IMG/VR virus record: IMGVR_UViG_3300017958_000027
Coordinates: 1 to 37,602 of that record
Source: a virus
Reading direction: 5' to 3' (one strand)
Length of the DNA stretch: 37,602 nucleotides
This document shows, one piece after another, positions 12,606-35,100 of this stretch (its first letter is position 1; every line of letters begins with the position of its first letter). Both the position numbers and the translations under genes were made by a program. The notes below the pieces were generated by a model. The model worked only from the letters and a program-made list of their open reading frames with translations, was not told the DNA's origin and searched no databases.

Positions 12606-12941
12606 ATGAGACCATTATGCAAATGCGGCAAGCGACCAGCTGCTATAAACTACAAAAAAGGTGATAAAACATATTACCGTAAGTTATGCGAAACTTGTTT
12701 ACGCAACGGGTTAGGTCACGGTATACCTAAATGGGAGCAAAAAGGTTATAAGAAATTAGATACTTGTGAAAAGTGTGGGTTTAAAAGTAAACACCCCGAA
12801 CAGTTCAATGTGTTTCATATCGACGGTAATTTAGAGAACTGTCGTCCTAGTAACTTAAAAACAATTTGTGCTAATTGTCAACGAGTTCTTCAAAAGGAAG
12901 GTGTACGTTGGAAACAAGGTGACCTAGTCCCTGATTTCTAA
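12606..12941 (+). CDS. Zinc-binding HNH / endonuclease VII-like protein
   Basis: A 111-aa basic protein with two zinc-knuckle pairs, C5-x-C7 with C28-x2-C31 and C54-x2-C57 with C88-x2-C91. Between the second pair is the ββα-metal signature FHIDGNLENCRPSNLKTIC (H71, D73, N83), as in HNH nucleases and T4 endonuclease VII. The usual final His after the last Cys pair is Gln92, so activity is uncertain. A small family of this type occurs in marine T4-like phages, from memory. The gene stands alone on the plus strand between gp18 and the kinase, and its 3' 71 bases overlap the convergent kinase gene. It could be a free-standing homing-type nuclease or a DNA-repair or resolution factor. Confidence 0.7.
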   Translation: MRPLCKCGKRPAAINYKKGDKTYYRKLCETCLRNGLGHGIPKWEQKGYKKLDTCEKCGFKSKHPEQFNVFHIDGNLENCRPSNLKTICANCQRVLQKEGVRWKQGDLVPDF

Positions 12942-13431
12942 AAATAGTTCTAGTTAGTATAGCAACATTTTTTTCTAGTCTATCTAAAGAACCATTATTA
13001 TCAATAGTGTAATCACACATCCACTGTTCAATACTCATAGAACTAGGATCTTCCGTAGGCAAGTGATCGCAACGATCTACCCAAATAGCATAATCAAAAA
13101 TTTCTTCATTTTGCATTGCAAAGAATTCACGTTTATTACGCAGTCCGCAGTATATTTGATTTTGGGCAAACAAGTTGCGTCCAAGACGTGCCAAATCATC
13201 TTTACAATAGTCGTGTATCATATTGTACCATTCTGTGCGATGATTGTGTCGATCTGCGTAACATTCTTCTTCGTTAGCGTATCCGTATTTGTCTTTTAAA
13301 TCGTTAAAAATAAAAAGCTCAGAACAAAACTTTGAGCTTGATTGAAATGTATAACCGTATTTTTCAAGCATTTCGCAGACGGTATCTTTGCCGTGTCTGC
13401 CGTGTCCGACAACAAGTAATTTTGGTAACAT
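12871..13431 (-). CDS. gp1-like deoxynucleoside monophosphate kinase
   Basis: A P-loop kinase expected to phosphorylate dNMPs for phage DNA synthesis, as T4 gp1 does. The 186 aa begin LLVVGHGRHGKDTVCEML, with Walker A GHGRHGKD at residues 9-16. A central basic/acidic helical region follows (DRHNHRTEWYNMIHDY; DDLARLGRNLFAQNQIYCGLRN), then a nucleotide-binding strand YAIWVDR and the C-terminal NQGLGHLVSNVHLPFEELV. Length is shorter than T4 gp1 (241). A consensus sigma70 promoter (13461-13489) and AGGAG lie upstream, consistent with early expression. The last 71 bases overlap the 3' end of the HNH-like gene on the other strand. Both C-termini look natural. Confidence 0.75.
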   Translation of the reverse strand: MLPKLLVVGHGRHGKDTVCEMLEKYGYTFQSSSKFCSELFIFNDLKDKYGYANEEECYADRHNHRTEWYNMIHDYCKDDLARLGRNLFAQNQIYCGLRNKREFFAMQNEEIFDYAIWVDRCDHLPTEDPSSMSIEQWMCDYTIDNNGSLDRLEKNVAILTRTIFRNQGLGHLVSNVHLPFEELVDN

Positions 13432-17814: not shown

Positions 17815-18954
17815 ATGAAAGTTCTAGTAATTGGCGATGTAATAACTGACAAATATATTTATGGAACAAGCACACGTTTGAGTCCAGAAGCTCCTGTACC
17901 GGTTGTAAATCTAGCAGACGTTAAGATTTCACAAGGAGGTGCAGGTTTAGTATTTAAAAACTTAAAAAGTTTAGGCGTTGATGTTAAAATGCTTAATCTA
18001 TCAAATCCTTCAAGTGTAAAAACTCGTGTAATTTGTGACGGGCATTATATTACAAGAATTGATGAAGATTACATTACTGACGGTCAAGAGGCACTTAAAT
18101 CTATATTAGAAAAAGACTTTAGTGAATATGAATATGTTATCCTAAGCGATTATAACAAAGGCGTATTAGAACATTCAACTAATATTATTGCACACCTTAA
18201 TAGTTTTGGTTGTAAAGTAATTGTAGATCCTAAGCGCCACGCAAGTTGCTATGAAGGTGCTTGGTTAGTTAAACCTAATGGTTCAGAATTTGAAGGCTTA
18301 GGATTTACAAAATGGCTTGGTAATATCATTACTACAAATGCATCTAAGCCTGTTATAGCAGAAATTGACAAAGAATATTATACTGTATCAGTAGAACCTG
18401 TAGAAGTGTCAGATGTTACAGGAGCAGGAGATTGCTTCTTAGCAGCATTTGTTTATGCACTTACTAAAGGATACGATTATCAAAAAGCATTAGAAATTGC
18501 AGTTAGCGGATCAACACAATCAGTAAAGCACGTAGGTACATATATTTTAACAGAAAAAGATTTGCAGCAAAAAGTTATTTTTACTAATGGTTGCTTTGAT
18601 GTACTGCACAAAGGACACCTTACATTGCTAAAAGAAGCTCGGATGCTAGGTGATAAATTAATTGTAGGTCTTAACAGCGATGACAGCGTAAAGCGTTTAA
18701 AAGGCGCTCTAAGACCGTTTAACAACGTTGAAACACGTATGGAACAGTTACTATTAATTCCGTATGTAGACGAAGTTATTGTTTTTGATAACGACACTCC
18801 ATATGAATTAATTCAAAATTTAAAACCAGACCTAATTGTTAAAGGTGGTGATTATACTGTAGAAGAAATTGTAGGACACGACTTAGCACCTGTGCATATT
18901 GTGCCTACAGTAGAAGGATACAGCACAACAAGAATTTTAGAGGCACAAGAATGA
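17815..18954 (+). CDS. hldE: HldE-like bifunctional heptose 7-phosphate kinase / heptose 1-phosphate adenylyltransferase
   Basis: Two domains, as in bacterial HldE. The N-terminal PfkB-type kinase (about 1-248) has GDVITDKYIYG (7-17), RLSPEAPVPVV (21-31), LSDYNKG (110-116), VDPKRH (137-142), and the anion-hole motif DVTGAGD (200-206). It would phosphorylate heptose 7-phosphate at C1. The C-terminal nucleotidyltransferase (about 253-377) has FTNGCFDVLHKGH (256-268), RLKG (294-297) and KGGDY (343-347), and would join ADP to heptose 1-phosphate. At 379 aa it is about 100 shorter than E. coli HldE (477). The kinase lacks a segment between residues 60 and 68 and is trimmed elsewhere. It overlaps hldD by ATGA. 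Base composition is like its neighbours. Confidence 0.9.
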   Translation: MKVLVIGDVITDKYIYGTSTRLSPEAPVPVVNLADVKISQGGAGLVFKNLKSLGVDVKMLNLSNPSSVKTRVICDGHYITRIDEDYITDGQEALKSILEKDFSEYEYVILSDYNKGVLEHSTNIIAHLNSFGCKVIVDPKRHASCYEGAWLVKPNGSEFEGLGFTKWLGNIITTNASKPVIAEIDKEYYTVSVEPVEVSDVTGAGDCFLAAFVYALTKGYDYQKALEIAVSGSTQSVKHVGTYILTEKDLQQKVIFTNGCFDVLHKGHLTLLKEARMLGDKLIVGLNSDDSVKRLKGALRPFNNVETRMEQLLLIPYVDEVIVFDNDTPYELIQNLKPDLIVKGGDYTVEEIVGHDLAPVHIVPTVEGYSTTRILEAQE

Positions 18955-19769
18955 AAATTTTAATTACAGGACACAAAGGATTTATTGGTCAAAATTTAAC
19001 CTTTTATCTTCAAAACGATCACGAGTTATTTGGCTACGATTGGCAAGAAGAACATTTGCCAGAAGTTGAAGGATTTGATTGGGTAATTCACGTTGGTGCT
19101 ATTTCAAGCACAGCAGAACGAGATGTTGATAAAGTAATGCTACAAAATTACGAGTTCAGTAAGTGGTTATACAATCAGTGTAATACAAAAGGTGTAAATT
19201 TTCAATATGCTTCTAGTGCAAGCGTATACGGTCCTTATGAAAAGTTTAATGAAGACGATCCTAAACTACCACAATCGCCATATGCCTGGAGCAAGTATTT
19301 GTTTGACCGCTGGGTTTGGCAGCAACAACATAATGTTGTAATTCAAGGATTCCGTTATTTTAATGTATATGGTCCGTTAGAAGATCATAAAGGAGACCAA
19401 GCAAGTCCATTAACAAAATTTATTAAACAAGCAAAAGAAACAGGTACTATTGCATTGTTTGAAAACAGTGACAAGTATGAAAGAGATTTTGTGTTTGTAG
19501 GTGATGTATGTGAAGCACACAAACAACTACTTGAAAACAAAGAACCTGGATTGTATAACATTGGTACAGGTAAAACAGAAAGTTTTCAAAAAGTTGCAGA
19601 ACTAATTGCAAAAACATATAATGCAGAAATTAAATATGTTCCAATGCCTGAGCATTTAAAATCGCAGTATCAAGAATATACTTGTGCAGATATAGAAAAA
19701 TTAAGTAAAGTTACAAGCATTAACTTTGCAACAGTAGAGGAATACGTAAATGGAACAGCAGCCAACTAG
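18951..19769 (+). CDS. hldD: HldD-like ADP-glycero-manno-heptose 6-epimerase
   Basis: An extended short-chain dehydrogenase with the NAD(P) motif GHKGFIG (7-13), S88/S89 in YASSASVYG, and the catalytic pair Y111-x3-K115 (YAWSK). The rest follows E. coli HldD closely: GFRYFNVYGP (133-142), DHKGDQAS (145-152, with the lysine at 147 that would be the second catalytic base), RDFVFVGDV (178-186), YNIGTGKTESFQKVA (202-216), and PEHLKSQYQEYTCADI (233-248). It would convert ADP-D-glycero- to ADP-L-glycero-D-manno-heptose. Length is 272 against 310 in E. coli. The start overlaps the hldE stop by 4 bases, and the 3' end overlaps the cupin gene by 20 bases. Confidence 0.9.
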   Translation: MKILITGHKGFIGQNLTFYLQNDHELFGYDWQEEHLPEVEGFDWVIHVGAISSTAERDVDKVMLQNYEFSKWLYNQCNTKGVNFQYASSASVYGPYEKFNEDDPKLPQSPYAWSKYLFDRWVWQQQHNVVIQGFRYFNVYGPLEDHKGDQASPLTKFIKQAKETGTIALFENSDKYERDFVFVGDVCEAHKQLLENKEPGLYNIGTGKTESFQKVAELIAKTYNAEIKYVPMPEHLKSQYQEYTCADIEKLSKVTSINFATVEEYVNGTAAN

Positions 19770-20151
19770 AAAATCAGGTGTAGACCAAAAAGGATGGGGC
19801 TACGAAATGATATGGGCAACTAATGACAAATACTGTGGAAAGATTATGGTCTTCACAAGAGAAATGGCACAAACTAGTATGCATTTCCATAGAGAAAAAG
19901 ATGAGACTTGGTTTGTTAACAGTGGCAAATTTAAAGTGAAATGGATTGATACGAAAGATTCTAAATTATATGAGCAAGAACTTGCAGAAGGATCTACTTG
20001 GCATAATCCGCCATTACAACCGCATCAACTTATTTGTTTAACTAAAGAAGGAAGTGTAACAGAAGTAAGTACTCCGGATAGTGTTGAAGATAATTATAGA
20101 ATTGGTCCAGGAGATTCTCAAAAATTAGCTGAGGAATCAAATGGAAATTAA
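19750..20151 (+). CDS. Single-domain cupin, possible sugar-phosphate isomerase/epimerase
   Basis: A 133-aa cupin. After an N-terminal GWGYEMIWATNDKYCGK comes the first cupin motif, TSMHFHREKDETWFVNSGKF (residues 43-62), with metal ligands H45, H47 and E51. The second motif is in WHNPPLQPHQLICL, with H77 or H84. The overall look is that of type II mannose-6-phosphate isomerase cupins and the small cupins often seen in sugar-nucleotide clusters. It overlaps hldD by 20 bases and the next gene by 11, so it is surely co-translated with the heptose genes. Its reaction is not determined. It might isomerise a sugar phosphate feeding the pathway. Confidence 0.75.
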   Translation: MEQQPTRKSGVDQKGWGYEMIWATNDKYCGKIMVFTREMAQTSMHFHREKDETWFVNSGKFKVKWIDTKDSKLYEQELAEGSTWHNPPLQPHQLICLTKEGSVTEVSTPDSVEDNYRIGPGDSQKLAEESNGN

Positions 20152-20707
20152 AGATCATTTTGCCGTTCCTATATTGCATTATTACATTCCGCAAGAATTA
20201 GCTGACGAACTTGAAGTGCGACTAACTCCAGAGTTAAACAAGTTAGAACATAACGGTGATGAATACGATTACCGTAGATCAGATTTTTGGGAAACTAAAA
20301 TTTTATATCACGAACTTGCGCCCGAATTAACTGACGAGTGGACCAAGTGCATTGCACATTACAAAGAAGCAACTAGTATACAGACCGGCGAAGGATTGCA
20401 TTATTGGACGCAAGACTACAAGGACGACGAAGGCCACGATATGCACGGTCACGGAATTGACGGTATTAGCGGAATTTATTGGCTACGTGCAAATGAAAAC
20501 GCTGGATATATTCGTATGTATAATCCTAATACTGTTGCAGAATATGTACAACACGATGATCCAAATAAACCTTACTTTCAAGCCCAGTTAGATATTAAAG
20601 CAGAAAAAGGCAAATTGATTTTATTCCCGTCTTATTTAAAACACAAGGTTATAACTAAACGCAAAGATGTTATTAGAACAACTATTGCATTTAATGTAGG
20701 ATTATAA
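20141..20707 (+). CDS. 2-oxoglutarate/Fe(II)-dependent oxygenase-like protein
   Basis: A 188-aa double-stranded β-helix enzyme. The iron site is suggested by HGHGID (H102 or H104, and D107) followed by GISGIYWLRA, the distal H168 in FPSYLKHKV, and R179 in RTTIAFNVG for 2-oxoglutarate. This arrangement matches the small 2OG-Fe(II) oxygenases common in marine T4-like phages. A hydroxylation target (glycan, protein or nucleotide) cannot be read from sequence. It overlaps the cupin gene by 11 bases and ends one base before the GmhB-like gene, so it belongs to the heptose operon. Confidence 0.8.
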   Translation: MEIKDHFAVPILHYYIPQELADELEVRLTPELNKLEHNGDEYDYRRSDFWETKILYHELAPELTDEWTKCIAHYKEATSIQTGEGLHYWTQDYKDDEGHDMHGHGIDGISGIYWLRANENAGYIRMYNPNTVAEYVQHDDPNKPYFQAQLDIKAEKGKLILFPSYLKHKVITKRKDVIRTTIAFNVGL

Positions 20708-21385
20708 ATGTCTTATAATATGTGGGGCAATGCTCCTAAAAAACAACCAACACAAAGTCAAATTAATTGGAGCAATACTCCAAAGCCTGAAGAAATTCCA
20801 TACTATGATACCGTACACAACATTGCACCTAAAGTTGTTGTAGGGTTAGATCGTGACGGTGTAATTAATGTTGACAAAGGAACATATACATATCGTGTTG
20901 AAGACTTTGAACCTATTCCAGGTAGTTTAGAAGCAGTTGCAAAAATTAGACGTCTTGGGCATAAAATTGCAATAATTACAAACCAGGGCGGTATTGCAAA
21001 AGGAATTTATACACCTGACGATGTAGAACGTGTACACGACTATATGTTTCAACTATTAGGAGAAGCAGGATGTGCTAGTATTGATGCGCTATATTATAGT
21101 GAGTCAAGTTTGCGAGCAGACAATTACGCTAAACCTAACACAGGTATGTTTAAACGTTGCGAAGACGAAATGCCTTTTATTAAATTTTCAAAAGGCTTTT
21201 TTGTAGGTGACAAAATTAGTGATCTAAAGGCTGCATTTAAAATGGGTGCAAAACCTGTGTTAGTGCTTACTGGACACGGTAAAGAAACACTAAAAGAATT
21301 AAATAAATTTTCTAATCAAAAAATAAAGAAAAAGACCATCGTTTTTGATGATCTTTCTCAGTTTGCAGATTATTTAGATCGTTAA
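20708..21385 (+). CDS. gmhB: GmhB-like heptose 1,7-bisphosphate 7-phosphatase (HAD family)
   Basis: A histidinol-phosphatase/GmhB-type HAD enzyme, expected to remove the 7-phosphate from heptose 1,7-bisphosphate between the two HldE steps. Motif I is DRDGVIN (48-54), motif II TNQGGIAKGIY (91-101), motif III K142 in AKPNTGMF, and motif IV GDKISD (167-172). It departs from E. coli GmhB in lacking the zinc-binding Cys/His loop: the corresponding stretch is SESSLRADNYAKP. An N-terminal tail of about 40 polar residues is added. It begins right after the preceding stop, and its stop overlaps the convergent oxygenase stop by 3 bases. The operon context strongly favours GmhB over HisB. Confidence 0.82.
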   Translation: MSYNMWGNAPKKQPTQSQINWSNTPKPEEIPYYDTVHNIAPKVVVGLDRDGVINVDKGTYTYRVEDFEPIPGSLEAVAKIRRLGHKIAIITNQGGIAKGIYTPDDVERVHDYMFQLLGEAGCASIDALYYSESSLRADNYAKPNTGMFKRCEDEMPFIKFSKGFFVGDKISDLKAAFKMGAKPVLVLTGHGKETLKELNKFSNQKIKKKTIVFDDLSQFADYLDR

Positions 21386-22005
21386 TCTTCTAAAATTCTA
21401 AAGTTAGCACTAATAGACGATCTAACAGTATCACTTTTATTCCAAGTAACATAATGTTCTAGTGTGCTAGGAAACATAACAATATCTCCATCTTCTAAAA
21501 ACGGATTATGTCTTTTAGTCCATCTTTCAGGTTCATTAAATAAATGCATATTACCAGGACTAAAAGGTTCTGACCCTCCATCATAAAAGATAAACTGTCC
21601 GTACTTGCCGCTGTTTTCAACTGTATTTTCTCCAGGCAGATCTAACATATATGCACAGCTAATAATGTTGTTATCTCCGCTGTGTGCGTGTATCTCTTGA
21701 TGCTGTCCTTTATGATATCTATTTGCCCAAGCATACGAATGTATCTTATTATGAAATTCTTGTTTTAAACCAATTTCTTGTATGTATGGTCCTAGTACGC
21801 CTTGTATATTTTCGTAAAATAAATGCCAAGGCAATTTTTGATTAAGATCTTCGTGATGAATTGTAGTGTCGCAATCACAATCCCATTTATCTGATTTTCC
21901 AAATGCTTCTGGATCATTTAAATGAGGCATAAATGCTTCTTTAATTTTTTCGTGATTAGGCATTTTAGTTTTTAAAATTAAACTACCAAATACTAATTCA
22001 AACAT
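21382..22005 (-). CDS. Second 2OG-Fe(II) oxygenase-like protein
   Basis: A 207-aa double-stranded β-helix protein of the same broad family as the oxygenase at 20141, but divergent. Likely ligands are H106/H108 in QEIHAHSGDNN, H184 in FPSTLEHYV, and R195 in VRSSISANF. The region SCAYMLDLPGEN is the usual strand after the first His. It has a Cys/Asp-rich patch WDCDCD (41-46). Its start overlaps the carbamoyltransferase stop by 8 bases, so it is the last gene of the glycosyltransferase-carbamoyltransferase operon and converges on gmhB. The substrate is unknown; glycan or protein hydroxylation would fit the context. Confidence 0.8.
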   Translation of the reverse strand: MFELVFGSLILKTKMPNHEKIKEAFMPHLNDPEAFGKSDKWDCDCDTTIHHEDLNQKLPWHLFYENIQGVLGPYIQEIGLKQEFHNKIHSYAWANRYHKGQHQEIHAHSGDNNIISCAYMLDLPGENTVENSGKYGQFIFYDGGSEPFSPGNMHLFNEPERWTKRHNPFLEDGDIVMFPSTLEHYVTWNKSDTVRSSISANFRILED

Positions 22006-23797
22006 TTTCTACCTTTACTAATTTTCCTAATTCTGGCAAATATAAGTATTCAATATCACTTTTTCCTAAAGTATAAAATGCATTTTCTAATGTTTCAACT
22101 AACGGATCTCCACCTAAGTTAAAACTTGTATTGAATACAATAGGACATCCTGTTTTATTTTTAAATGCTTTAATTAATTTATAATAATTAGGATTTTGTT
22201 CTTCATTTACTGTTTGAATTCGACACGTTCCGTCTACGTGAATAATAGCAGGAATCTTTTCTTCAATACCAGGTTGACAGTTTACAGCATACATCATTGT
22301 AGGAGAAGATTTCATACCTCGTAGGTCAAACCATTCGTGTACATCTTCTTCTAAAATACTACCTGCAAACGGACGGAAATATTCTCTATGTTTAACACTG
22401 TTAACAAAATCTTTACCGTCTGGATCTGTTGGATCATAGAGTATACTTCTATTACCTAATGCTCTAGGTCCATTTTCTGAACGTCCTTGAAAAATTGTTA
22501 CAATATTTCTGCTAGTAATTAAATCAACAACATCTTCGTCTGTTGCATCAGTAACCTCTGCTCCATATTCTTCGCATAATTTGTTAACATCTTCGATAGT
22601 AATATTTTGTTCAGGACCTAAGTATACAGTTTCTGCTTGTGGATAAACTTCAGTATCTTTAGTAATACTTCTATATGCCCAAAGTGCTGCACCCATTGCG
22701 GTGCCGCCGTCATTAGACACTGGTTCAACGTAAATGTTAATTCCTTCTTCTTCTAACTCTTTTAAGTAAAAATAGTTAGCAACACAATTTAAGCCATAGC
22801 CGCCACTAACTACTACATTTTTACAACCACTAATTTCTACAGCAAATCGAATAACATCTGCTGCTGCTTTTTGTGTTTGTTTTTGGATAGCGTATGCTAA
22901 ATCTCTTCTATTTTGTAGTAGAGTTGCATCACCTCGGGTCTCTGGACGCTCTCTTAAAAACTCATATAATGATTCATTAACAATTGATCCATTTGGATAT
23001 CTAGGAATAAACAAATTTCTGTTACTTAACGGAGTTGGCCAACTTGCATTACTGTCAAACACTTCTGGAATTTCAGGATTTTCTTTTCCGTATGGAAATA
23101 ATCCCATTGTTTTGCCAGCTTCGATAGCGTCCCATCCGCAATACTCAGTAACCGCTTCGTAACATTTTACAATTCCTGCTCTATCTGATAATGATGCTTG
23201 ATAAGATCCTGTATTGTTTCCAAAAATGTCAGTGTCAGGTCCTTCTTCTGCAATAGTAGGCAAATAGTCTTTACACCCTAGTGTTTTATATAATGTTTGA
23301 ATGTTATCAGGATAAGAGCATTTGTAAATAGTTTCAGTTTCCCACATATATCTAGGTTCACCTTGCATATCAATTGGAAAACAAGTTCCTGCACCGTCAA
23401 TAATTACTGCTGTTGCTTCTTCAAATCCTGATCTATAAAATGCTAAACTGGCGTGCATTTTGTGATGCAGCTTTGCAACATCGATAACTTGTGGATGACT
23501 ATCCCAAGGATGTCCGTCTTCAATTAGTCCTACCTTTCTAGCAAGACCTGTGTATATATCTTCATTTGTGTAGTCTAGTCGCCCGGCAGTATCATTTAAT
23601 TCCTGTGTGTGAGAAATTACCATATAGTCTAGCTTGTCTGTGTACTCTAAAATTTTTAAAATAGATGCTAAAGGACCACCGTCGTATTTTTTACGGGTAA
23701 GTCTTTCTTCTTCTATAGAAAAAACAATTTCGCCGTCTTTTAATAAACATACTCCTGCATTGTGTCCTCTTGCAACACCAGCAATCCACAAACTCAT
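21998..23797 (-). CDS. NodU/CmcH-type O-carbamoyltransferase
   Basis: A 599-aa enzyme of the TobZ/NodU family, which uses carbamoyl phosphate and ATP to carbamoylate a hydroxyl of a sugar or antibiotic. The N-terminal Kae1-like domain starts WIAGVARGHNAGVCLLKDG. It has the metal-binding histidines H111, H112 and H115 (KLHHKMHASLAF) and IIDGAG (132-137), with VVSGGYGLNCVAN further on. The C-terminal domain has GRSENGPRALGNRSIL and FRPFAGSILEED, typical of the family, and CPIVFNTSFNLGGDPLVET near the end. The start at 23797 is chosen over an in-frame ATG 39 bases upstream because AAGGAGGTCA lies just before it and it overlaps the preceding stop (TAATG). It probably decorates the heptose-containing glycan. 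Confidence 0.92.
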   Translation of the reverse strand: MSLWIAGVARGHNAGVCLLKDGEIVFSIEEERLTRKKYDGGPLASILKILEYTDKLDYMVISHTQELNDTAGRLDYTNEDIYTGLARKVGLIEDGHPWDSHPQVIDVAKLHHKMHASLAFYRSGFEEATAVIIDGAGTCFPIDMQGEPRYMWETETIYKCSYPDNIQTLYKTLGCKDYLPTIAEEGPDTDIFGNNTGSYQASLSDRAGIVKCYEAVTEYCGWDAIEAGKTMGLFPYGKENPEIPEVFDSNASWPTPLSNRNLFIPRYPNGSIVNESLYEFLRERPETRGDATLLQNRRDLAYAIQKQTQKAAADVIRFAVEISGCKNVVVSGGYGLNCVANYFYLKELEEEGINIYVEPVSNDGGTAMGAALWAYRSITKDTEVYPQAETVYLGPEQNITIEDVNKLCEEYGAEVTDATDEDVVDLITSRNIVTIFQGRSENGPRALGNRSILYDPTDPDGKDFVNSVKHREYFRPFAGSILEEDVHEWFDLRGMKSSPTMMYAVNCQPGIEEKIPAIIHVDGTCRIQTVNEEQNPNYYKLIKAFKNKTGCPIVFNTSFNLGGDPLVETLENAFYTLGKSDIEYLYLPELGKLVKVENV

Positions 23798-24819
23798 TAG
23801 TGACCTCCTTGATGAACTACGCCGTGCGTTGGGCAAACTTGACCATCTTGTTGCTGCATTTCTGCAGGCGGCCTTGGCGCACTTCTTTTTGATTTTCCTG
23901 TTTGTTCTTTAATTGATTTTACAATATCATTAACGTGTTCTTTACTCATATTCATAGCTTTGTCATTAATTCTGTCAGGCTCTTCTTCTAAACTAACTCT
24001 AATAGGACTGTAAACTCTTCTACCGTCTCCAATATCAAAAATTGTAACATCTTTATCATTTACATAAGACGTATTAATTGGAAAAGTACTGCCAGTAACA
24101 ACTGTTGCCTTTGTTCCTAATGCCTTTGCTACGTGTTGTCCTACACTATCGCAGCCTAAGAAATGATCAGCTTCTGCAATAACACCAGACCATATTCTTA
24201 AGTCAGGAATTTGAGGCTGCGCTAATGGTGTTTCATTTTGATTTTCTTCATACAGATCTAAGTGTATTTCACTCATAATAATAACACCATATTCTTGTTT
24301 TAATTGATTTGCTACAGCAAGCATATCTTCAACTCTAAAACTTCTTGACGTTTGATCAATTAAATTTTGTTCAACTCCTCTACCAAATGGCTGAATAACA
24401 ACTACTTTATCAAATCCTGTAACGCCTCTAACCTCGTCAACAACTGACTTGCCTTGTGCAAGTTCTGCTTTACTAAGATTAATAGTCGGCGAAGGAAGTT
24501 CTCGAATTCCTTTTTTATTGATTTCAATATCAAACGCTTGCGCAATACTACATTTTTGATTATAGTATTCCCAGACTCTATAAGGTTCAGGACTTACACA
24601 ATTTCTATCTTTAATAAATTGTTCAAATAATCCTTTATGCCAAGTGTCGTATGCACGTTTGTGAAGTGTAGGATGTCCTTTGTAAAAATCCATACCACCT
24701 TCGCATACAATAATAAAATCATCATCAGGATTTTCTTTTTCGTACAATTCAAAGGCAGGTATTGATGTTACAACACGGCCTGCGCCGCCGTTGATAAAAA
24801 ATGCTGTTGATCGTGTCAT
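23797..24819 (-). CDS. GT9-type glycosyltransferase (heptosyltransferase-like)
   Basis: A 340-aa GT-B enzyme. The N-terminal GGAGRVVTSIPAFELY (11-26) corresponds to the 'GDxLxxxPA' loop of ADP-heptose:LPS heptosyltransferases. VVVIQPFGRG (139-148) opens the second Rossmann half, and ADHFLGCDSVGQHVAKALGT (217-236) followed by VVTGST is the nucleotide-sugar site of GT9. The last 35 residues form a Pro/Gln-rich tail ending CPTHGVVHQGGH, a possible small metal site. With HldE, HldD and GmhB nearby, ADP-heptose is the natural donor. The acceptor may be host LPS core or a virion protein. It has a perfect TATAAATA late promoter. Confidence 0.78.
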   Translation of the reverse strand: MTRSTAFFINGGAGRVVTSIPAFELYEKENPDDDFIIVCEGGMDFYKGHPTLHKRAYDTWHKGLFEQFIKDRNCVSPEPYRVWEYYNQKCSIAQAFDIEINKKGIRELPSPTINLSKAELAQGKSVVDEVRGVTGFDKVVVIQPFGRGVEQNLIDQTSRSFRVEDMLAVANQLKQEYGVIIMSEIHLDLYEENQNETPLAQPQIPDLRIWSGVIAEADHFLGCDSVGQHVAKALGTKATVVTGSTFPINTSYVNDKDVTIFDIGDGRRVYSPIRVSLEEEPDRINDKAMNMSKEHVNDIVKSIKEQTGKSKRSAPRPPAEMQQQDGQVCPTHGVVHQGGH

Positions 24820-24938: not shown

Positions 24939-25736
24939 TTAAGTATTTGGCTCGTCGTAATCAGTTTCACCAAAATCAATTAATGTTGTTCTAGGAAGCA
25001 TTGAATCTACAAGAATTTGTGGAATTCCTGCATCTTCCATTGCTTGAGGAAGATCTCTTAGTAACTGTCTATACCTTTCTAACTCAGCGACTTCGTCTGC
25101 TTTACTGTCGCCTAATGCCTTTAATGCAAGGTATTGTGCATCAGTATTTGCAAGTAACTTCATTCTGTGTTCTCTAATTTGAACCCAGGTTGGAGCTGGA
25201 CCAATTATGTCTTCCATAGTATTTTTTACTAATACAATTTTTTTAGTTTCAAAATCCCAGTAAGAACGCTGATCACAATATAACTCATCTGGGTGTATAG
25301 GATAAGGATATTCAAAGTTTTCATAACCCGGTGGTGATTCAATAATTTTTTGACCAACTTCGTGTATATAATCTTCAGCATCCATAAAGTTATTATGATA
25401 ATCACTTAACACTTCTGCTGCTAGGGGATCTTCAGCGCAATCAAATTTAATTAAACTTGTTTCTTCGGCTGGTTCAAATTGAACCTCGTCTGGAAGTTCA
25501 AAATCTCTATATACACGTTCAAACTGTCCAGTTTCCTTGTCTGCAAAAAAGTAAAGATACTTTGGACCAATATACACAGTTTCAATAGTGTCTGTATTAT
25601 CCCAACCATCTAAATAGTTGTCATTTGGACATTCATAACTGTATTCAACTTTAATCCATTCAGTACCGTGCTCGTCAGTCATTTCAATGTCATCAATTTC
25701 AACACCTAAATTTGTTTTTATATCTATTGTTGCCAT
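24939..25736 (-). CDS. Tail-fibre assembly chaperone-like protein
   Basis: A 265-aa acidic protein. Residues about 180-235 have the pattern of phage tail-assembly chaperone C-terminal domains: W-x-x-(I/V)-R-x-x-R-x-x-L-L-x-x-T-D, seen as PTWVQIREHRMKLLANTD, and later RYRQLLRDLPQ. The N-terminal 170 residues are acidic, Tyr-rich and probably β-structured. I do not recognise them; they include DNYLDGWDNTDTIETVYIGP. It is the last gene of the fibre cassette, 4 bases after the stop of the Cys-rich gene, where fibre chaperones usually sit. It probably helps fold or attach the Cys-rich or S74 fibre. The position relative to the terminator supports a complete gene. Confidence 0.65.
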   Translation of the reverse strand: MATIDIKTNLGVEIDDIEMTDEHGTEWIKVEYSYECPNDNYLDGWDNTDTIETVYIGPKYLYFFADKETGQFERVYRDFELPDEVQFEPAEETSLIKFDCAEDPLAAEVLSDYHNNFMDAEDYIHEVGQKIIESPPGYENFEYPYPIHPDELYCDQRSYWDFETKKIVLVKNTMEDIIGPAPTWVQIREHRMKLLANTDAQYLALKALGDSKADEVAELERYRQLLRDLPQAMEDAGIPQILVDSMLPRTTLIDFGETDYDEPNT

Positions 25737-25740
25737 ATCA

Positions 25741-26604
25741 TTAACTCCAAGTAATTCTTACTAATCCTGGCATACCAGGTGTTCCTAAGCAGAAACATAT
25801 AAAGTTACCACACCAAGATTTCATATTACTCATACCGCCCATTGCAATAAGTCTAAATCCTCTACAACAACTTGCACATCCACAGTATGTTCTACTGTTA
25901 CCTAAGTAATAAGAGTGTTGGTTGTTTAAACCATATGATTTACTTGTAAACTGTTGTCTTGAGTTACAATCACAGTTACCTCTTGACTTATAAAAGTTTG
26001 GTTCGCCACCTAAGTCTGCGTGATCCCATTTACAACCTATACAAATACCTAAGTTACAGAAACCTTCAGTTCTGTTTGCTTGGTTGTTACATTCACAAGT
26101 ACAATAAATTGTATAAGCACCTTGGCCGCCTGGCATACAAGTACAGCATAATCCTGCACCACTAACCCAAGATGCACAACCTCTAGGTCCTTGACAACAA
26201 CCAGTAAAACAACCACAACCGTTATTGTTTGTACCATTGCCGCCAGCGCCAATACAGTAGTTGTATCCGCACCCTGGAACAAATTGTCCATCAATTCTTC
26301 TAATTGTTTTTCGACCGTAGTATCCGCCAAATGAGCCACAAGAAGCAATGTCACATCTACAGCTAAAGCAGCAGTGTCCTGAACCTGAGCCTCCCCCGCT
26401 CCATACTTCAAATGTAATTACTGACGCACAAGTACAAGCAGACCAAGTGCCGCAACGTCCGCAGTGTGCTCGACACCTATGAGTACCGTTACATATTAAG
26501 CAGGTGTTGTAGCACTGGAACATTCCGCCTGCAACTTGCCCTTGTGATCTTTGACAAGTACCGTCTGGAAATCTAATTCCGTCACTATATAAACAGGTTG
26601 CCAT
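25741..26604 (-). CDS. Cysteine- and glycine-rich fibre-cassette protein
   Basis: A 287-aa protein with about 40 cysteines, many in CxC, CC and GCG arrangements (for example GHCCFSCRCDIASCGS and TYCGCASCCRG), along with many Gly, Asn and aromatic residues. It begins MATCLYSDGIRFPDGTC, recalling the 'GIxFPDGTxQ' start of many phage fibre proteins, and ends GTPGMPGLVRITWS, a typical end of Gly-rich marine phage fibre proteins. There is no signal peptide. The start is set by AAAGGAGAGG in the end of the S74 fibre gene, and the ATG directly follows that stop. A receptor-binding tip or adhesin like gp38 of other T4-like phages is the best guess. Why so many Cys are kept in a protein made in a reducing cytoplasm is open. 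Confidence 0.65.
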   Translation of the reverse strand: MATCLYSDGIRFPDGTCQRSQGQVAGGMFQCYNTCLICNGTHRCRAHCGRCGTWSACTCASVITFEVWSGGGSGSGHCCFSCRCDIASCGSFGGYYGRKTIRRIDGQFVPGCGYNYCIGAGGNGTNNNGCGCFTGCCQGPRGCASWVSGAGLCCTCMPGGQGAYTIYCTCECNNQANRTEGFCNLGICIGCKWDHADLGGEPNFYKSRGNCDCNSRQQFTSKSYGLNNQHSYYLGNSRTYCGCASCCRGFRLIAMGGMSNMKSWCGNFICFCLGTPGMPGLVRITWS

Positions 26605-28821
26605 TTATGCCTCTCCTTTTAAACTATTTATTTCCGCTTTTAATTCTTTAATTGCTTCTACAAGTAACGGAACAACTCTCTCGTATTGCAATGTTATATA
26701 TTCTTCTCCTGAAATGCTGTTACCATCTAAATCTCTATCAAACGGAGCATCGTGAATAATTTCTGGAAGAACTTTTTGAACTTCTTGAGCAATTAAACCT
26801 ACTTCTGTTTTTTCTTTATCAAAGTCATCTGGTGTGTTTTCATTCCAGTTATATGTTACACCGTTAAGTGATAGTACTTTATCTAGTGCGTTTGGAATGT
26901 TTTCAATGTTGGTCTTAAGTCTAGCATCTGAAGTGTTTGAAATAATGTTACCAGTTGCTCTGTGAATACCGCTTGTTTGCGCACCGTCACTTTGTGTTGT
27001 AATCTTAGTGCCGCCGTTGTAGCGCATTTCTGTTTGTGCATTAAACACACCGTAGAACAGCCATTCGTTGTTTGCATCATCGTAAATACCAGTAGCATTT
27101 GCATTATCGTGCATAAACACAACTCGTCCGCCAATGCTATAACCTTCCCAACCGCCGTGTGCTCCACCGTCAATTTGAATTGAACCGTAGTTGCCGCTTA
27201 CTGGTTGGAAGTAGCCGTTGCCTGTGTCACCTAAACGTACACCAGTAGTGTTAATAGTCATTTCACGACTACCACCTGTGTATAAACTGATTGTATCAGC
27301 TTCAAAATCAATGTATGTGTTGGTATCGCCAGTATGTCTAATATAACGTGCAACGTCTAAGTTACCAGTTGCTTCTAGTGAAGTAAATTTACCTGTTGAA
27401 GCAGTTGTAGCACCTACTGACATATTGTTAATAGAGCCGCCGCCTGCTGGCGAAAGTGTAGCTGTACCAGTGCCACTTGGTGAAATTGTTACGTTAGCAT
27501 TTGCTGGCGAAAATCCAACTGTGCTAGTTGCATCTAGTGTAGTAAACTGTCCTGAGCTTCTTGATACGTTACCAATTGGACCTACAAAGCCGCCTCCTGA
27601 ATAAACACGTTTAGCAATACTTGCGCCACCTTCACATCGTAGTGTACCTGTGTCGCCACTGTTATTTGAAGCATCTGTTGTGCCTGTAAAGTCTACAGTT
27701 GAGTTTGCAGTTAGTGTAGTAAATGCACCGCTATTAGCAGTTGAACTACCAATTGGTGTATTTTGAATGCTACCTGCATATATTGCGCCACTAGCACCTA
27801 TACCACCTGTAACAACTACTGTACCAGTTGTTGTATTAGTTGCTGCTGTATTAGCAGTAAATGTTGTTGCGCCATTTGATGCTAGTGTTGTAAATGCACC
27901 TGAGCTACGAGTTGTACTACCAATTGGAGTACTTTGTAAACTGCCGCCGTATATTGCACCGCTTACACCTAAACCACCAGTTACAACTAATGTACCTGAT
28001 GTTGTGCTAGATGATGCTGTATTTGCTGTAAATGTTACTGCACCTGTTGCACCTAAACTTGTAAAGTTTGCTTGTGCAGGGTTACTAGCACCAATGCGCA
28101 TATTAGTAATGCTGCCAAGTGTATCTGAACTAATATTTAATGTACCGCCTGCCCCAATAGTAACATTGCCGCCTGGATCAATAGTAACACTACCAGTTCC
28201 TGTTGGCGACATATTAATTGTTTGGTCTGCTGCTGTAAATTCTAAGTTACCTGGAAACGCTGTTGGTTTTCCTGCTTCGCCTAGTGTAATTGTTCCTGAC
28301 GCAGATGCTAAAATTAAGTTTCCTGTAGGACGGATAGTAGCTGTTGCCCCTGGCTGAATGGAGACAGAACTTTGAGGACTAACGTCTACTGTGCCGGTTC
28401 CTGTTGGTTTAATTTCTACATTGTTGTCTAACGGATTAAGTTCTACTTTTCCGTCTGCATTTAGTACATTATTAAATGTAACTGGTAATTCAAATACTGT
28501 AGTACCAGCTAACGCACTTGTTAGAACGTAGTTGGTGCCATCTGATGTTAACTGGTATGTTGAGTTTGTTGGAATTTCAATCTCAGTACCAATTGTAACA
28601 CCGTTACCTGTAATAGTTCCTGCTGATGTAGCGATAGTGATCATATCACTAGTAGCATTATAAAATGTTTGTCTGCTACCAGGGAAAAATACAGGACTTA
28701 CCATAGTTACAGTATATCCCGGAGTACCAGTTAAACTAATAATTCCCCCTGTAAATGCATAGGTAAAAGTAGTTTCTCCTGTTACTTCCAGTGTCTGTGG
28801 TGCTGTATTATAACGTGCCAT
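26605..28821 (-). CDS. Tail fibre with C-terminal S74 intramolecular chaperone
   Basis: A 738-aa fibre subunit. The N-terminal and central part is β-rich and repetitive, with stretches such as TGTVVVTGGIGASGAIYAGS and IGSSTANSGAFTTLTAN repeated three to four times, plus short triplet motifs (GTGTVDVSPQ, GTGSVTIDPGG) typical of trimeric β-helical fibres. Residues 631-738 are a Peptidase_S74 / intramolecular chaperone domain: SDARLKTNI (Ser and Lys of the self-cleavage site), VGLIAQEVQKVLPE, and the C-terminal coiled coil LVEAIKELKAEINSL. After trimer folding the domain is expected to be cleaved off just before S631. The ribosome site is AGGGGAAA. Confidence 0.9.
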   Translation of the reverse strand: MARYNTAPQTLEVTGETTFTYAFTGGIISLTGTPGYTVTMVSPVFFPGSRQTFYNATSDMITIATSAGTITGNGVTIGTEIEIPTNSTYQLTSDGTNYVLTSALAGTTVFELPVTFNNVLNADGKVELNPLDNNVEIKPTGTGTVDVSPQSSVSIQPGATATIRPTGNLILASASGTITLGEAGKPTAFPGNLEFTAADQTINMSPTGTGSVTIDPGGNVTIGAGGTLNISSDTLGSITNMRIGASNPAQANFTSLGATGAVTFTANTASSSTTSGTLVVTGGLGVSGAIYGGSLQSTPIGSTTRSSGAFTTLASNGATTFTANTAATNTTTGTVVVTGGIGASGAIYAGSIQNTPIGSSTANSGAFTTLTANSTVDFTGTTDASNNSGDTGTLRCEGGASIAKRVYSGGGFVGPIGNVSRSSGQFTTLDATSTVGFSPANANVTISPSGTGTATLSPAGGGSINNMSVGATTASTGKFTSLEATGNLDVARYIRHTGDTNTYIDFEADTISLYTGGSREMTINTTGVRLGDTGNGYFQPVSGNYGSIQIDGGAHGGWEGYSIGGRVVFMHDNANATGIYDDANNEWLFYGVFNAQTEMRYNGGTKITTQSDGAQTSGIHRATGNIISNTSDARLKTNIENIPNALDKVLSLNGVTYNWNENTPDDFDKEKTEVGLIAQEVQKVLPEIIHDAPFDRDLDGNSISGEEYITLQYERVVPLLVEAIKELKAEINSLKGEA
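26608..26931 (-). other. S74 intramolecular chaperone domain (coding)
   Basis: The codons for residues 631-738 of the fibre. The predicted autocleavage lies between T630 and S631, by the rule for this family, in which Ser and Lys of S-x3-(L)-K act together. Confidence 0.8.
27510..28080 (-). repeat. Tandem coding repeats in the S74 fibre
   Basis: Three degenerate copies of a unit of about 60 codons, each with F-T-(S/T)-L, then TxTFTANTA, VVTGG(L/I)G(V/A)SGAIY, and (S/N)TPIGS. They are recognisable at DNA level around 27510-27720, 27720-27900 and 27900-28080. The boundaries are approximate. The repeats probably build the fibre shaft. Confidence 0.7.
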
Positions 28822-28841: not shown

Positions 28842-29162
28842 TTAAGTTGTCGAAGTTTCGATGCCGTATACAGTTATACCAACGTCATTAGAATTTACAT
28901 TTGCTACTATATTTAGTCCGCCTTGCATAACTAAACCTGTACGCTCAAATACACCGTTTGGAATAATAACTGTATTCCATTCAATCCATTCTTCATCGTT
29001 AGGCGTTGATGTTGTTGCCATTGCCAACTTCATTGAAATTGACGTTGAATTTCTGTTTGTGATTGAGACATTCGCTACAGCATATGTTCCTACCGGTACT
29101 GTATAAACAGTAACATCGGTATTTGCTGTTAAGTCCTGTACTCCTAATCTTCCTGTTGCCAT
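28842..29162 (-). CDS. Small β-rich fibre-cassette protein (106 aa)
   Basis: A 106-aa protein with alternating hydrophobic strands (DVTVYTVPVGTYAVANVSIT, then SISMKLAMATT, GVFERTGLVMQGGLNIVAN, VGITVYGIE). It looks like a single β-sandwich. Similar small proteins accompany fibres in marine T4-like phages, from memory; the function is unknown, and it could be a fibre cap, hinge or decoration. The ribosome site GGAGAAA lies just upstream. It begins 16 bases after the giant fibre stop and ends 20 bases before the S74 fibre start. Confidence 0.65.
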   Translation of the reverse strand: MATGRLGVQDLTANTDVTVYTVPVGTYAVANVSITNRNSTSISMKLAMATTSTPNDEEWIEWNTVIIPNGVFERTGLVMQGGLNIVANVNSNDVGITVYGIETSTT

Positions 29163-29178: not shown

Positions 29179-32100
29179 TTATCTGCTTAAGAAGTATCCA
29201 AGTGCTACTGGAGCTCCATCAATACCGCCTGTAAAGTTCATCTTCGCTTTAATATTTAGCTGACCTCCACTAGTTGTAGTGATTTCATCGTTTGCAATGA
29301 ATATTACACCTGCTGTTAGTGTGTTAACGTTTAGACTTGATTGACCACCACCAATTTGTGCTGTAATGTAACTCTTAATAGCACGTTGCGTTGGGACAAT
29401 GTTGTCGCTGTTTTCAGTAAAGAACGGGTCTGTACTGAACTGTGTAATAACAGCTGATCCAATACCAACTGCAATACCGCCAAGTTGCAATGACTGCAAG
29501 CCTGCTAAGTTAAATGCGTCTGCATCCAATGTCGCAGTACCAGTGGACTGCTGAACACCAAACAAGTTACCAACGTTAAAGTTACCATCTTGGTCGGTTG
29601 ATGTAAAGAACACCCTTCCGCCGCCGCTACTTAACTGTTGTCTATCAATACTTGCAGAAGTAATATCTACGTATGGATAGTTTGTTTGTGCTTGGTTACC
29701 AGTACCAATGTACAAGAAGTCGTGTCCTGTTAGACGTACTTGCGAGTACTTATTAGTTGTAGTAATTGTTGTACCGTCTTTCGGAGCATTTAGTGTTACT
29801 AGTCCTGGGCTAACTTGGAATGTTGCTGTATAGCTTCCTGGTTGTCCAATAACATTACTAATTGTAACCAACTTGTACCATCTGTTTTCAATGTTGTCAA
29901 ATACAACGTTTGAACCAGGTTCTGGTAATTCAAACAATCCGCGTACTGCAATAAATGTACTTGGCTGATACAAGTCTGCACTACCGTCACCGCCTAGTTC
30001 AGCAGTAGCAGTTGTATAACCTGTACCTCTGTTTGTAAACGTTGGGTTAGCTAATGCACCATTTCTAATTCTTGGCCAAACTGCTGCATCAATTGTTGAG
30101 TTAGGATCAGTAATTGTTACTTTTGGTCCTGCTTCAAATGTTACAGTACCAATTGCATCAGAAGCAACAGTTTCAATATCAAAACTTGCTCCGCCGCTTA
30201 GTAGACTTACTTCAATATCTGTTCCACTAATTGCACTAACGTAGTAAACTGTTTCACTATTTAAACCAACTGCGTCAGCGCCAACAAATACAATTGGCTG
30301 GTTCAAGTACAAGTTATCTGCACTATCAATTTCAATAGTGTTTGGTGCAGTTGAACTTAATACTGTTCCAACTGGATAACCTGATCCTGGTTCTGCTAGT
30401 CTAATGCTTGTAATAGCACCATCTTCGTCAGTACATCTACCTAGTGCTTTAGCACCTGTTTTAAGTTTAAGTGCTAATCCAGTTGTTGCAGCCTGTGTAC
30501 CGTTACCTACAGTCCAAACCGGAACGTTTCCTGGGTTACCAAAAGCAACACCTTGGAAGTCTTCAATAGTTCCATCAATAAATCTTTCTGTCCAAACAAG
30601 ACCGTATTGGCTTGTAGCAACAAAGTTACGTCCTACAGCTACAAACAAACCTTGACCATAACTTATATTTGACCAAATATTATTGCCAACTTGTGCAACA
30701 GCTTTCTTCAGTGCTGAATTTGCTGCTACCCAAGTTGCGCCATTGTCTGTGCTTACTGCTACTTCACCTGAGTTAGCTAGTGCAACAAATCTTCCATTAC
30801 CATATTCAATTGCTGTCCAATCTCCTGTAGCTGTTGGAAGTGCTCCGCCTGCTGTCCAAGTAATACCATTTGTACTAACTGCTGATTCGTCACTTCTTGA
30901 AATTGCAACAAATGTTGATGCGCTGTATGCTACACCAATAAATGAGTCAGTTCCACTAGCAAGTGTAGTAATAGTTCTTGAAACCCAAGCACTACCATCA
31001 GTTGATGTTGCTGCACCGCCGCTGCCATCACCACCTACAGTTACAAACGTTCCATTACCATATGCAATATCTTGATTTGCAGTACCCGGAAGTGCTGCGC
31101 CTGCTGTCCAGTTGTCAGTAGCGGCTGCACTTGCTGCTAGTGAAGCATTTGCGTTACTAGTAGTATCAATAGCTACCCATTGTGCGTCATCATCTGTAAT
31201 TACTACGGTTGGAGCACTTGTGTATCCTGAACCACGTATTGGGTCATCGTCACCGTCAACATCAATTGTAATTGTTGCAACACCACCATTGTTTATTGTA
31301 GCTGATACTTGAGCTTGATCGCTGCTTCCGCCTCCAGTAAGTGTTACTGTAGGAGCACTTAGGTATCCTCTACCATATGAGTTAACAATAATTTCAGTAA
31401 CTTTGTCTGTTTCTGCTGTTACTGTTGGTGCTGCTGCATAACCTGCACCAGTACTTGTAATGATAATCTCTTGGATAATACCATCTTTAACAGTAGCAAC
31501 AGCACTTGCGCCACCGCCGCCTTGTGTTGCTGTAAACACAATAGTCGGAGCAGTTACATATCCACGCCCGCCATTAACTACATTTACCTTAGCAATCTGT
31601 GTTGGACCTGGTAAGCCAATGCTGTTTAGTTCACCTAGTTCTGCTTCAAGTACTGCACCCGAACCACCTAAACCACCAACAATAGCTGTTGCTGTTGCAC
31701 CTTGGCCGCCACCAAACGCTACTTTATTCCAAGCACCAGTTACTGGCATTGTACCACCTGCTGCCCAAGTTGTGCCGTCTAGCGAGTAGTTAGTTGGTGT
31801 AGCACCTACTGGCAATGCAATAAATCTATTTGATGCATAATTAAATGCGCCAAAGTCTTGCGTAGTTGCCATTGTAGTGTCGCTTTGTGTAAAGCCAGGT
31901 TCTTGATAATCAATTGCTGCTTCGACTCTGTAACCAGTTGTTAAGTCTAAGTTTGCTGCTGGAGGTGTTCCAGGGCGAACATTATCCCAACCTGCTTCGT
32001 ACATTGTTACACTTTGACCTGTTGTAGTTGTTAGTGTAAATGCTGCGCCGCCTTCGCTATCACTTAATACAAAAGTACCGTCCCAGTTGTTAGTAATGAT

Positions 32101-35100
32101 ATAGTATAGATCATTTTCTACTAAGTTACCAACATCGCCTGCAATGTAAACTGGCATTCCAACATATAGCTGTTCCCAAGGTCCTGTCACTGTTACAACA
32201 TTACCTGTTGCGTTAGTATCAGTAATTGTGAACGGACCTACACTTGGTTTATAAACTTTAGCAACTTTAGTACCGTTGTTAAATTCAATAGCAGTACCGT
32301 ACTGGCCTACACCTGTACCTGCGGTAAGTTGTACGTTCATACCTACATAAGCGCCACCTAGTGCAGTGTCAGTTGCAGCCAATGTAGCTGAAACTTCATC
32401 ACCGCCCTGTGCAACGTTTTGTGCAGATACATAATCGGCGCCACCAACACCGTTACCGTCATCTAAATCAATTATGCGTGTTTCAATAACTGCTTGGTCT
32501 CTGAACTCGTCTTGTACTACCGCTGCATTAAAGCCTGCGCCACTAATTGCAACTTCTGCGTTAGTGTAATCTCTACCAGCGTTTGAATATTCAAAACGTA
32601 ATACTTGTTCTTCACCATCTGTAACAACATTTGCAATTACTGCATCTTGTGATAAGTTGTCAACTTCTGCTGTAATTGGTTCTTCGCCAGTATCAGTACC
32701 TTCAGCAATAACACCGTAAGTACCGTAAGATGAGTTACCGTTTGTAGCACGAATACGTCCACCTAAGTCTGCTAAGTAACCTGAATAGTTGTAGTATGCA
32801 AACACGGATACAAGCTCTGTTAGCGAGTTGTTACCGCTACACCATACACCAATACCATCACTTAGTACTTGTGTAAAGTCGTTTGAAACGATAGATCTGT
32901 TACCACCTGCGTGTAACGCACCGTCGATCTTACAACCAACACAGCCTGTACCAAATGTTGTTACGTTTTGTACATAACAAGATTTGTTAGTTACCCACGC
33001 TTCAGTATCCCAAGGACCAAAGCCTGGATCAAGTGATACATATGCGCCTGCTGTTGGGCGTCTTGTTCCAAAGGAGTTTAGCTCTGTTAAGTTACCACGT
33101 AAGCCGTTAACAGTCATATTACGTACACCTGTAGCGTTTCTTACGTGGAACATATCTGAACGTAGTGATCCGTTTACAGCGTTTAAGTAAAGTTCTGCTG
33201 ACTTCCAAGACTTGTGGTTACCTGGATATTGTAAATCGTATACAATTGAATCAATGTAACGTGTCATATCTCTGCGGCACGCTGCTTCATCAAATGAGTA
33301 TGTTGCAACACTTGATCCAGCTCCGCCTGTAAATGTTAGTGATTCACCGTCTTTTTCGTCGCTAATTTCAACTGTAGTTGCAGAACCTACATTAGTTACC
33401 CAATATGTTTTTCCTGCTTCTACGTCACCAAACGCATTGTCATCGAACTTAATTGGATCGCCTACAGCTAGATTATGTGCTGCTGTAAATGTAATTGTAC
33501 CTGGAGATCCATTAATGTCATTAACTGTTCCGCCGTATTGTGATTTAATCCAAGCAGTTGCTTCGTTTGCTAAGAAGTTTCTGTTTGCTTTTAGTACGTC
33601 TACAGCATTAATAGTTTCTCTATCATTAAAGTAAGTCATTGAACCAGTAATTTCCGGAGTCTGGCCATTACCTTTATCTAGCATATTGATAACAATATCC
33701 ATTAATGCATTTGTACGTTTTAATGCAAGAGCACTACCGTTTACATAAGTTCCAATTTTATTCTTTAATTCTCTGTAAGCCTGTACAGTTGCATTTTTTT
33801 GCGGACCAATTACTTTTTCAGCTTGTGTTCCTCTGTAGTATGATTGTGCTGCTACTGTAGTTAAGAAGTTAGTGTTTAACATCATATCCTTACCAACAGC
33901 TTCTACAATGTAACCAACGTCACGCTCACATTTAGCACTATCGTATACTAGTGTAGGATAGTTTTCTGCAATATATTCAGTAATTGCTGTTTTAATTGCA
34001 GTCATTGAACCTGTTAAGTTTGTAAACTGTTGTTTAAGTGTCGAATCAACACTTGCTAAGTTTCCATTTCTTACAGGATAAGCTGGAATTGTAGCATTAG
34101 GAAAATCAGCCAATGCTGCTACCGGACCATTGAAATATTCTGAAATAGTAAATGTAGTTGTAGTCGGTACTGTTTTAATATAGTATGATGTGCCGTCATT
34201 TAATCCTGCAAATGTAATAGTATCGCCAAGTTTAAGTCCGTGCGCCGCTGACATAGTTAGAACATTACTTGTAATATCAGTAACTACAAGCTCTTCAATG
34301 TCGGTTACATCTCTTACAACATTGTAAAGTGTTGTCATCAACTCTTCAGTTCTTACAACACTATTTGCATCGCCTACAGTTTGCAATTCGTCTCTTACTA
34401 CAGGATCTACAACGTCTTGGAGTGCTCCTGGACTTGAAACTGAGTTTACTGCTAAGCCATTAACAATCTGTTTCATATAGTCATATGCATCAAGTGTTGC
34501 TTGCTGTTCTGCTTGTGGAATTTGCAAGCCATCGGCTGCTCTATTTAGATAGTACTGATATCCTGCTTCTAATGTAGCTGAAGAACTACCGTATGTTAGA
34601 TCATATCTTAATGCATCAACAATATATCCTACATCACGCTTACACTTAGCAGTGTCATAATCTAGTGTAGGATAATTTTGTGCAATATATTCTACAACTT
34701 CTGCTTGAATAAATTTCTTATTTTCCCAAATAATAGAAGCTGCTGCAACATCATTTGCATCTGAAGAAGCATTAGAAACCCATTTAGCAGTTGGAGTTTC
34801 GCCACCGTTAATGTAGCCAGTAATATCATCAATAATTAATTCAATTGCTGCACTTGGGCTAACTGCTGCAATTCTTCTTACTTTTTCTGCTAAGAAGTTA
34901 ATTGAGCCTACTGTTGCTGCTAGTTCATTACTAACTACTTCTTGTGCTGATGTAGTTTGTCTGTAGTATGCCATACCTGCTTTAGTAGTTGCAAAGTTTG
35001 ATCCTGTTGCCAAATCACGTGCAATAGCATCAACCATTAAGCCTGCATCTCTACGACAAGTATCTTGGTTATATTCTAGTTCTTGATGGAACTTTTCTAC

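Follow-up and report, generated by a model that had tools for sequence, protein, structure and literature searches.

Here we report that a cysteine-rich gene of the virus record IMGVR_UViG_3300017958_000027 very probably encodes the tail-fibre tip with which a marine phage grips its host cell. The gene lies at positions 25741–26604 (minus strand) of the window, that is, the whole 37,602-nucleotide stretch of DNA analysed, and its product is a glycine-rich predicted fibre-tip adhesin of 287 residues, 40 of them cysteines. The protein belongs to a family catalogued as 'unknown function' (phrog_4205 and phrog_35878), for which its composition, residue conservation, predicted fold and gene order, as computed here, provide a probable function. 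Phages of Synechococcus and Prochlorococcus carry the family repeatedly, and it is likely to be the tip with which they recognise their hosts, a gap in marine phage–host biology. Our analysis points to a strongly constrained, cysteine-laced adhesin with a cross-linked or metal-bound tip; it is a known kind of phage adhesin in a new, cysteine-for-glycine version, and a literature search for cysteine-rich cyanophage fibre proteins, covering open-licence papers, found no earlier description of either the version or such a tip.

The gene is an open reading frame (ORF) that runs from ATG to stop with exactly these bounds, and the plus strand of the same stretch is rich in stop codons. Cysteine accounts for 13.9% of the protein (40 of 287 residues) and glycine for 17.4% (50 residues), as compared with 0.70% cysteine in the remaining 28 main ORFs of the window (82 in 11,786 residues), a rate at which at least 40 cysteines in 287 residues would arise with a binomial probability of about 1e-38. 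The first-pass annotation, which had called this cysteine content extreme, was correct on that point. It had also drawn on the CxC and CC patterning; CC occurs four times (shuffle mean 4.8), CxC nine times (shuffle mean 5.4, P 0.06) and CxxC six times (shuffle mean 5.4). Since these spacings are close to chance for the composition, the protein has no metal-motif signature, and what is remarkable is the amount of cysteine and its conservation. The suggested likeness to metallothioneins, which are small, mostly non-aromatic and unfolded without metal, is ruled out by the length of 287 residues, the predicted β fold and the aromatic content (13 Tyr, 13 Phe and 6 Trp). The next most cysteine-rich protein of the window is encoded by a 186-aa ORF at 12871–13431 (minus strand), with 7 cysteines (3.8%).

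Three parts can be distinguished in the protein, all encoded on the minus strand. The N-terminal segment (residues 1–32, MATCLYSDGIRFPDGTCQ...; 26509–26604) is presumably the attachment part; it is kept within the group of 287-aa proteins, unlike the corresponding segments of other subfamilies, and is modelled with a predicted local distance difference test (pLDDT) score under 50. This segment had been read as a 'fibre-like start', a reading that found no support, as its [FI]xDGTxQ pattern matches no other ORF of the window. The first glycine-rich loop (residues 67–87, VWSGGGSGSGHCCFSCRCDIA; 26344–26406) consists of a glycine stretch followed by a cysteine-rich turn (C78, C79, C82 and C84), and across 83 sequences W68, G71 and G72 are invariant and C78 almost so. 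The other cysteine-rich loops and the closing strand (residues 115–287; 25744–26262) contain the core cysteines C117, C132, C143, C156, C188, C191, C213, C243 and C265. The 'fibre-like end' of the earlier annotation, GLVRITWS, is indeed common to the whole family, but it corresponds to the last strand of the predicted TNF-like fold.

The window protein matches a single PHROG, phrog_4205 (E 5.8e-10, residues 28–287). Searches of annotated phages by tblastn returned no match for the protein, even at E 10, nor for its downstream neighbour, and relatives were reached through two neighbouring genes, a 106-aa gene and a glycosyltransferase-like gene, which led to phages S-CAM1, S-CAM3, P-SSM2, S-SSM7 and Sf-FS3. 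In each of these five phages, two or three 'hypothetical proteins' (260–356 aa, 24–36 Cys) precede the glycosyltransferase and Nol-like carbamoyltransferase genes, and all ten sister proteins tested matched phrog_4205, phrog_35878 or both. The hypothetical proteins of S-CAM1, S-CAM3, S-SSM7 and P-SSM2 with these matches are direct family members, sharing length class, cysteine core and cassette; the window group differs from them in having the highest cysteine count, its own N terminus and one gene copy in place of two or three. Overall, the family has 24–42 cysteines per protein and occurs in the cyanomyoviruses S-CAM1, S-CAM3, S-SSM7, S-SSM6a, P-SSM2, P-SSM5 and Sf-FS3 and in about 90 IMG/VR contigs, as one to three tandem copies in the fibre cassette adjoining a tail-fibre-assembly-chaperone gene. 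The hosts of all the named isolates are Synechococcus or Prochlorococcus. Two loci in bacterial metagenome-assembled genomes (L110 and L111; Actinomycetota and Flavobacteriales) carry a complete fibre cassette with three cysteine-rich adhesins, and are probably phage contigs misbinned with bacteria. In S-SSM7, the annotated gene SSSM7_117 (locus L018, 10416–10745) overlaps the third cysteine-rich gene in another frame and is unlikely to be a real gene.

The gene order bears out the first-pass assignment of the protein to a fibre cassette, all genes of which lie on the minus strand. Upstream of the adhesin gene are those for a 738-aa tail fibre with a C-terminal Peptidase_S74 intramolecular chaperone (26605–28821), the 106-aa fibre-cassette protein (28842–29162; phrog_11338, tail), which has 46–48% identity in cyanophages and is common to S-CAM1, S-CAM3 and P-SSM2, and a long tail fibre or virion structural protein with PHROG tail fibre matches (29179–37602; 2,807 aa within the window, the ORF reaching the window end). 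Immediately downstream is a gene for a 265-aa protein resembling tail-fibre assembly chaperones (24939–25736), with matches to phrog_9740 and phrog_4912 ('tail fiber assembly') and to Phage_tail_APC (PF16778; 26.7 bits, against a cut-off of 26.6); relatives give stronger matches. This protein is the probable folding partner of the adhesin, and the same type of neighbour is found in relatives. The downstream genes match one profile at 100 of 100 loci, a figure that is partly circular, the profile having been built from those genes, and the independent support for a chaperone neighbour is therefore that of the Pfam and PHROG matches. The adhesin–chaperone pair is followed, in the same order as in cyanophages, by genes for a glycosyltransferase-like protein (23797–24819; phrog_8954, E 3.7e-135; 45–55% identity in cyanophage cassettes) and a Nol-like carbamoyltransferase (21998–23836), the latter assigned from gene order and from how its counterparts in S-CAM1, S-CAM3, P-SSM2 and S-SSM7 are annotated. 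A P-SSM2-like glycan-metabolism block (17815–23836) adjoins the fibre genes, comprising heptose kinase/adenylyltransferase-like, nucleotide-sugar epimerase, 2OG-Fe(II) oxygenase and carbamoyltransferase genes. In P-SSM2 itself (locus L017, 7261–10127), the gene in the chaperone position sits between the two cysteine-rich genes and matches no chaperone family.

We modelled the window protein with AlphaFold2 from an 83-sequence alignment (pLDDT 64.8, pTM 0.70), together with a sister protein (pLDDT 81.1, pTM 0.80). In the window-protein model, the β core is good (blocks 51–70 and 91–120 at pLDDT 84–89), and the N terminus and several loops are poor. Its best match among solved structures is the tail fibre of phage Pam3 (7ypx_A; Foldseek E 1.1e-4; VIA Z 15.5, 194 residues aligned, rmsd 3.7), and the sister model matches the same chain with Z 17.5 (188 residues aligned, rmsd 2.7). 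Next in both match lists are the Bxb1 tail tip and the TNF-like and glycine-rich domains of ALK/LTK, followed by background; the S16 gp38 structure (6F45), the three-layer polyglycine lattice of T-even/S16-type adhesins, is absent from the lists, which is not evidence against a likeness. Among viral models, family members from S-CAM3 and P-SSM2 rank highest, followed by numerous glycine-rich proteins of phages and by syn9 gp38. At the sequence level, profiles A1 and A2 and an S-CAM1 member found no match in the PDB, and the window protein found none in Pfam, including Gly_rich_2 (PF21722); a relative 68% identical to it (L005) scores 23.1 bits against Gly_rich_2, just below the cut-off of 24.3, and the S-CAM3, S-SSM7, Sf-FS3 and L110 members pass it. 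The predicted models show a TNF-like sandwich running on into glycine-rich loops, as in Pam3 gp24. Only 5 of the 40 cysteines lie in predicted strands, against 9.6 expected, and in the model most sit in loops, the region that forms the receptor-reading tip in Pam3. Low confidence in these cysteine-rich loops prevents the assignment of disulphide partners.

The fibre tip of Pam3 resembles S16 gp38 in architecture; its glycine-rich loops terminate in a variable region proposed to be the receptor site, and the gp24 gene is followed by that of the chaperone gp25, which binds gp24 with 3:3 stoichiometry (PMC9608196). The window protein resembles Pam3 gp24 (PDB 7YPX and 7YFW) in its predicted TNF-like and glycine-rich loop fold over 188–194 residues and in its adjoining assembly chaperone; moreover, Pam3 is a phage of cyanobacteria, as are the named isolates of the family. 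It differs in sequence (17–19% identity) and in composition: the Pam3 glycine-rich domain has 39% Gly, with no cysteine mentioned in the paper, whereas the window protein, from W54 onward, has 17.9% Gly and 13.7% Cys. As it falls short of 39% Gly, we term it a variant and not a plain Pam3-type member, and the α-helical shaft of Pam3 was not found in it. The first-pass idea of cysteine-capped polyglycine in a gp38-type adhesin is thus supported as to class, given the model's match to the gp38-like tip of Pam3 gp24 (PMC9608196). Phage tail proteins with Gly_rich_2, such as Synechococcus phage syn9 gp38, share the WxxPxGV...GGGGxG opening, and sister members pass the cut-off of that domain, but in syn9 gp38 that domain is 28% Gly and contains 2 Cys. 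The ALK/LTK TNF-like and glycine-rich (TG) domain has the same general fold (Z 8–10), a likeness of fold only, in a eukaryotic receptor. Ordinary glycine-rich cyanophage relatives (syn9 gp36 and gp38 and a 485-aa P-SSM2 protein) have 28–41% Gly and 0.4–3.2% Cys in the domain; the cysteine-rich family has means of 19% Gly and 11% Cys, and within it the two contents are inversely correlated (r = −0.52, not corrected for phylogeny). Syn9 gp36, encoded in the syn9 fibre cassette, has 8 cysteines in its 41% Gly domain and lacks a profile match to the family; that it represents an intermediate towards the cysteine-rich family is only suggestive. A second glycine-rich syn9 adhesin, gp39 (locus L113, 17150–18328), resembles an incomplete duplicate with a change of reading frame part of the way along.

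These comparisons suggest how the protein may work. We infer that it is a trimeric component of the virion that binds a receptor, with a TNF-like β-sandwich extending into a glycine-rich loop bundle at the end of the tail fibre. In this family the loops have lost about half of their usual glycine and carry conserved cysteines. The adhesin would be made in the reducing host cytoplasm alongside an assembly chaperone of its own, the product of the next gene. Once lysis has released it into oxic water, oxidation of many of the loop cysteines may form disulphides, stapling the loops into a rigid tip, and the variable residues between these cysteines may bind a host surface glycan or protein. We regard a fibre-tip adhesin of Pam3 gp24-like fold as highly likely, and the whole reading, a receptor-binding adhesin of this type whose loop cysteines are stapled by disulphides after lysis, as somewhat favoured. 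Among the first-pass options, this chemistry corresponds to the disulphide-locked adhesin that forms after lysis, which is compatible with the data and is the one we prefer. The cysteine chemistry is the weak step of the reading, the chances that disulphides are the dominant state of the cysteines being about even. These results raise the questions of what keeps a protein with 40 cysteines soluble in the cytoplasm and of the state in which its thiols exist in seawater.

The cysteines are under strong constraint, as revealed by an alignment of 176 distinct near-full-length sequences, IMG/VR members included. All 40 cysteines of the window protein are kept in relatives of about 80% identity, in which other residues are kept at 76–80%, and 37 of 40 at about 67% identity, in which other residues are kept at 62–64%. 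Among pairs at 60–90% identity, cysteine is the most conserved residue (95.3%, compared with 85.9% for Gly, 80.9% for Trp and 55.6% for Ser); at 20–40% identity it is second to glycine, and no other residue is kept above 50%. About ten columns remain cysteine in at least 85% of sequences at 20–30% identity. Position 156 is cysteine in 61 of 61 representatives, and positions 78, 82, 117, 132, 143, 188, 191, 213, 243 and 265 in 85–95% of them (92–93% for C78 and C82); in alignment A2, C156 and C188 are invariant. Cysteines beyond this core are lineage-specific, and C270 is freely gained or lost. Neutral drift, or a by-product of codon bias in a glycine-rich sequence, would fit the identity of the residues that most often replace cysteine, Gly (20%) and Asn (19%), but the free exchange with Gly, Ser or Thr that the first-pass annotation had named as a sign of drift is not seen, and these conservation data refute drift, to which we assign a negligible probability.

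Among close relatives, 13 of 27 changed pairs differ by a single cysteine (6 of 18 without the labile C270 column), and the total cysteine counts of family members are often odd. These single changes and odd totals argue against strict intrachain pairing but would be compatible with bonds between chains, with pairing of some cysteines only or with metal sites. In a rival reading, the same fibre-tip adhesin would use its cysteines as thiolate sites that bind Zn, Fe or Cu and give the loops their shape; host metal-uptake receptors might recognise these sites, along the lines of the iron 'Ferrojan/Trojan Horse' idea. Such sites would tolerate single-cysteine changes better than strict disulphide pairing would, and they could be filled while the protein is still in the reducing cytoplasm; there is also a precedent for iron in phage fibre tips, through HxH motifs (PMC11705849). 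We nevertheless consider metal sites rather doubtful, since the CxC, CC and CxxC counts are no higher than composition gives, the window protein has only 5 His and none of the HxH iron-binding motifs of the T4 gp37 type, and no known metal-site family is matched. It is unlikely that the cysteines remain free or exchangeable, to react with the host surface or to serve on adsorption as a redox trigger: such thiols should oxidise in oxic seawater, and a structural role is suggested by how strongly about ten core positions are conserved, although the odd and varying cysteine counts and single changes would suit this reading. A further reading places the protein outside the virion tip, as a factor in assembly or as a soluble decoy adhesin set free by lysis. 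It draws on T4, in which the gene after the long fibre encodes a chaperone absent from the virion (gp38; PMC9608196), and on virion proteomics having been found for no family member; we judge it equally improbable, as a separate chaperone-like gene lies directly downstream and the matched fold is that of a virion receptor-binding tip. For the favoured fibre-tip adhesin, one may tentatively go further and envisage redox- or metal-gated host recognition, in which unrelated marine phages share an adhesin whose glycine-loop lattice has become cysteine-stapled or metal-clustered, is assembled reduced within the cell and becomes hard, or takes up metal, once released.

The large terminase of the window phage (2853–4433, minus strand) is closest (55%) to that of the Pseudomonas jumbo phage PA5oct and its kin, not to those of cyanomyoviruses. 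With a PA5oct-like terminase and a cyanomyovirus-like fibre cassette, the window phage is thus a mosaic, and the cassette is present in at least two phage lineages, most simply explained by exchange between phages with common hosts. Neither of the cyanophage markers psbA and cpeT turned up in the window's record or in those of its relatives, but this absence is not decisive, as the records are fragments. The tail sheath protein of the window phage (9130–12489, minus strand; phrog_10581), with 1,119 residues, is much larger than T4-like tail sheaths, which are usually 500–650 residues long.
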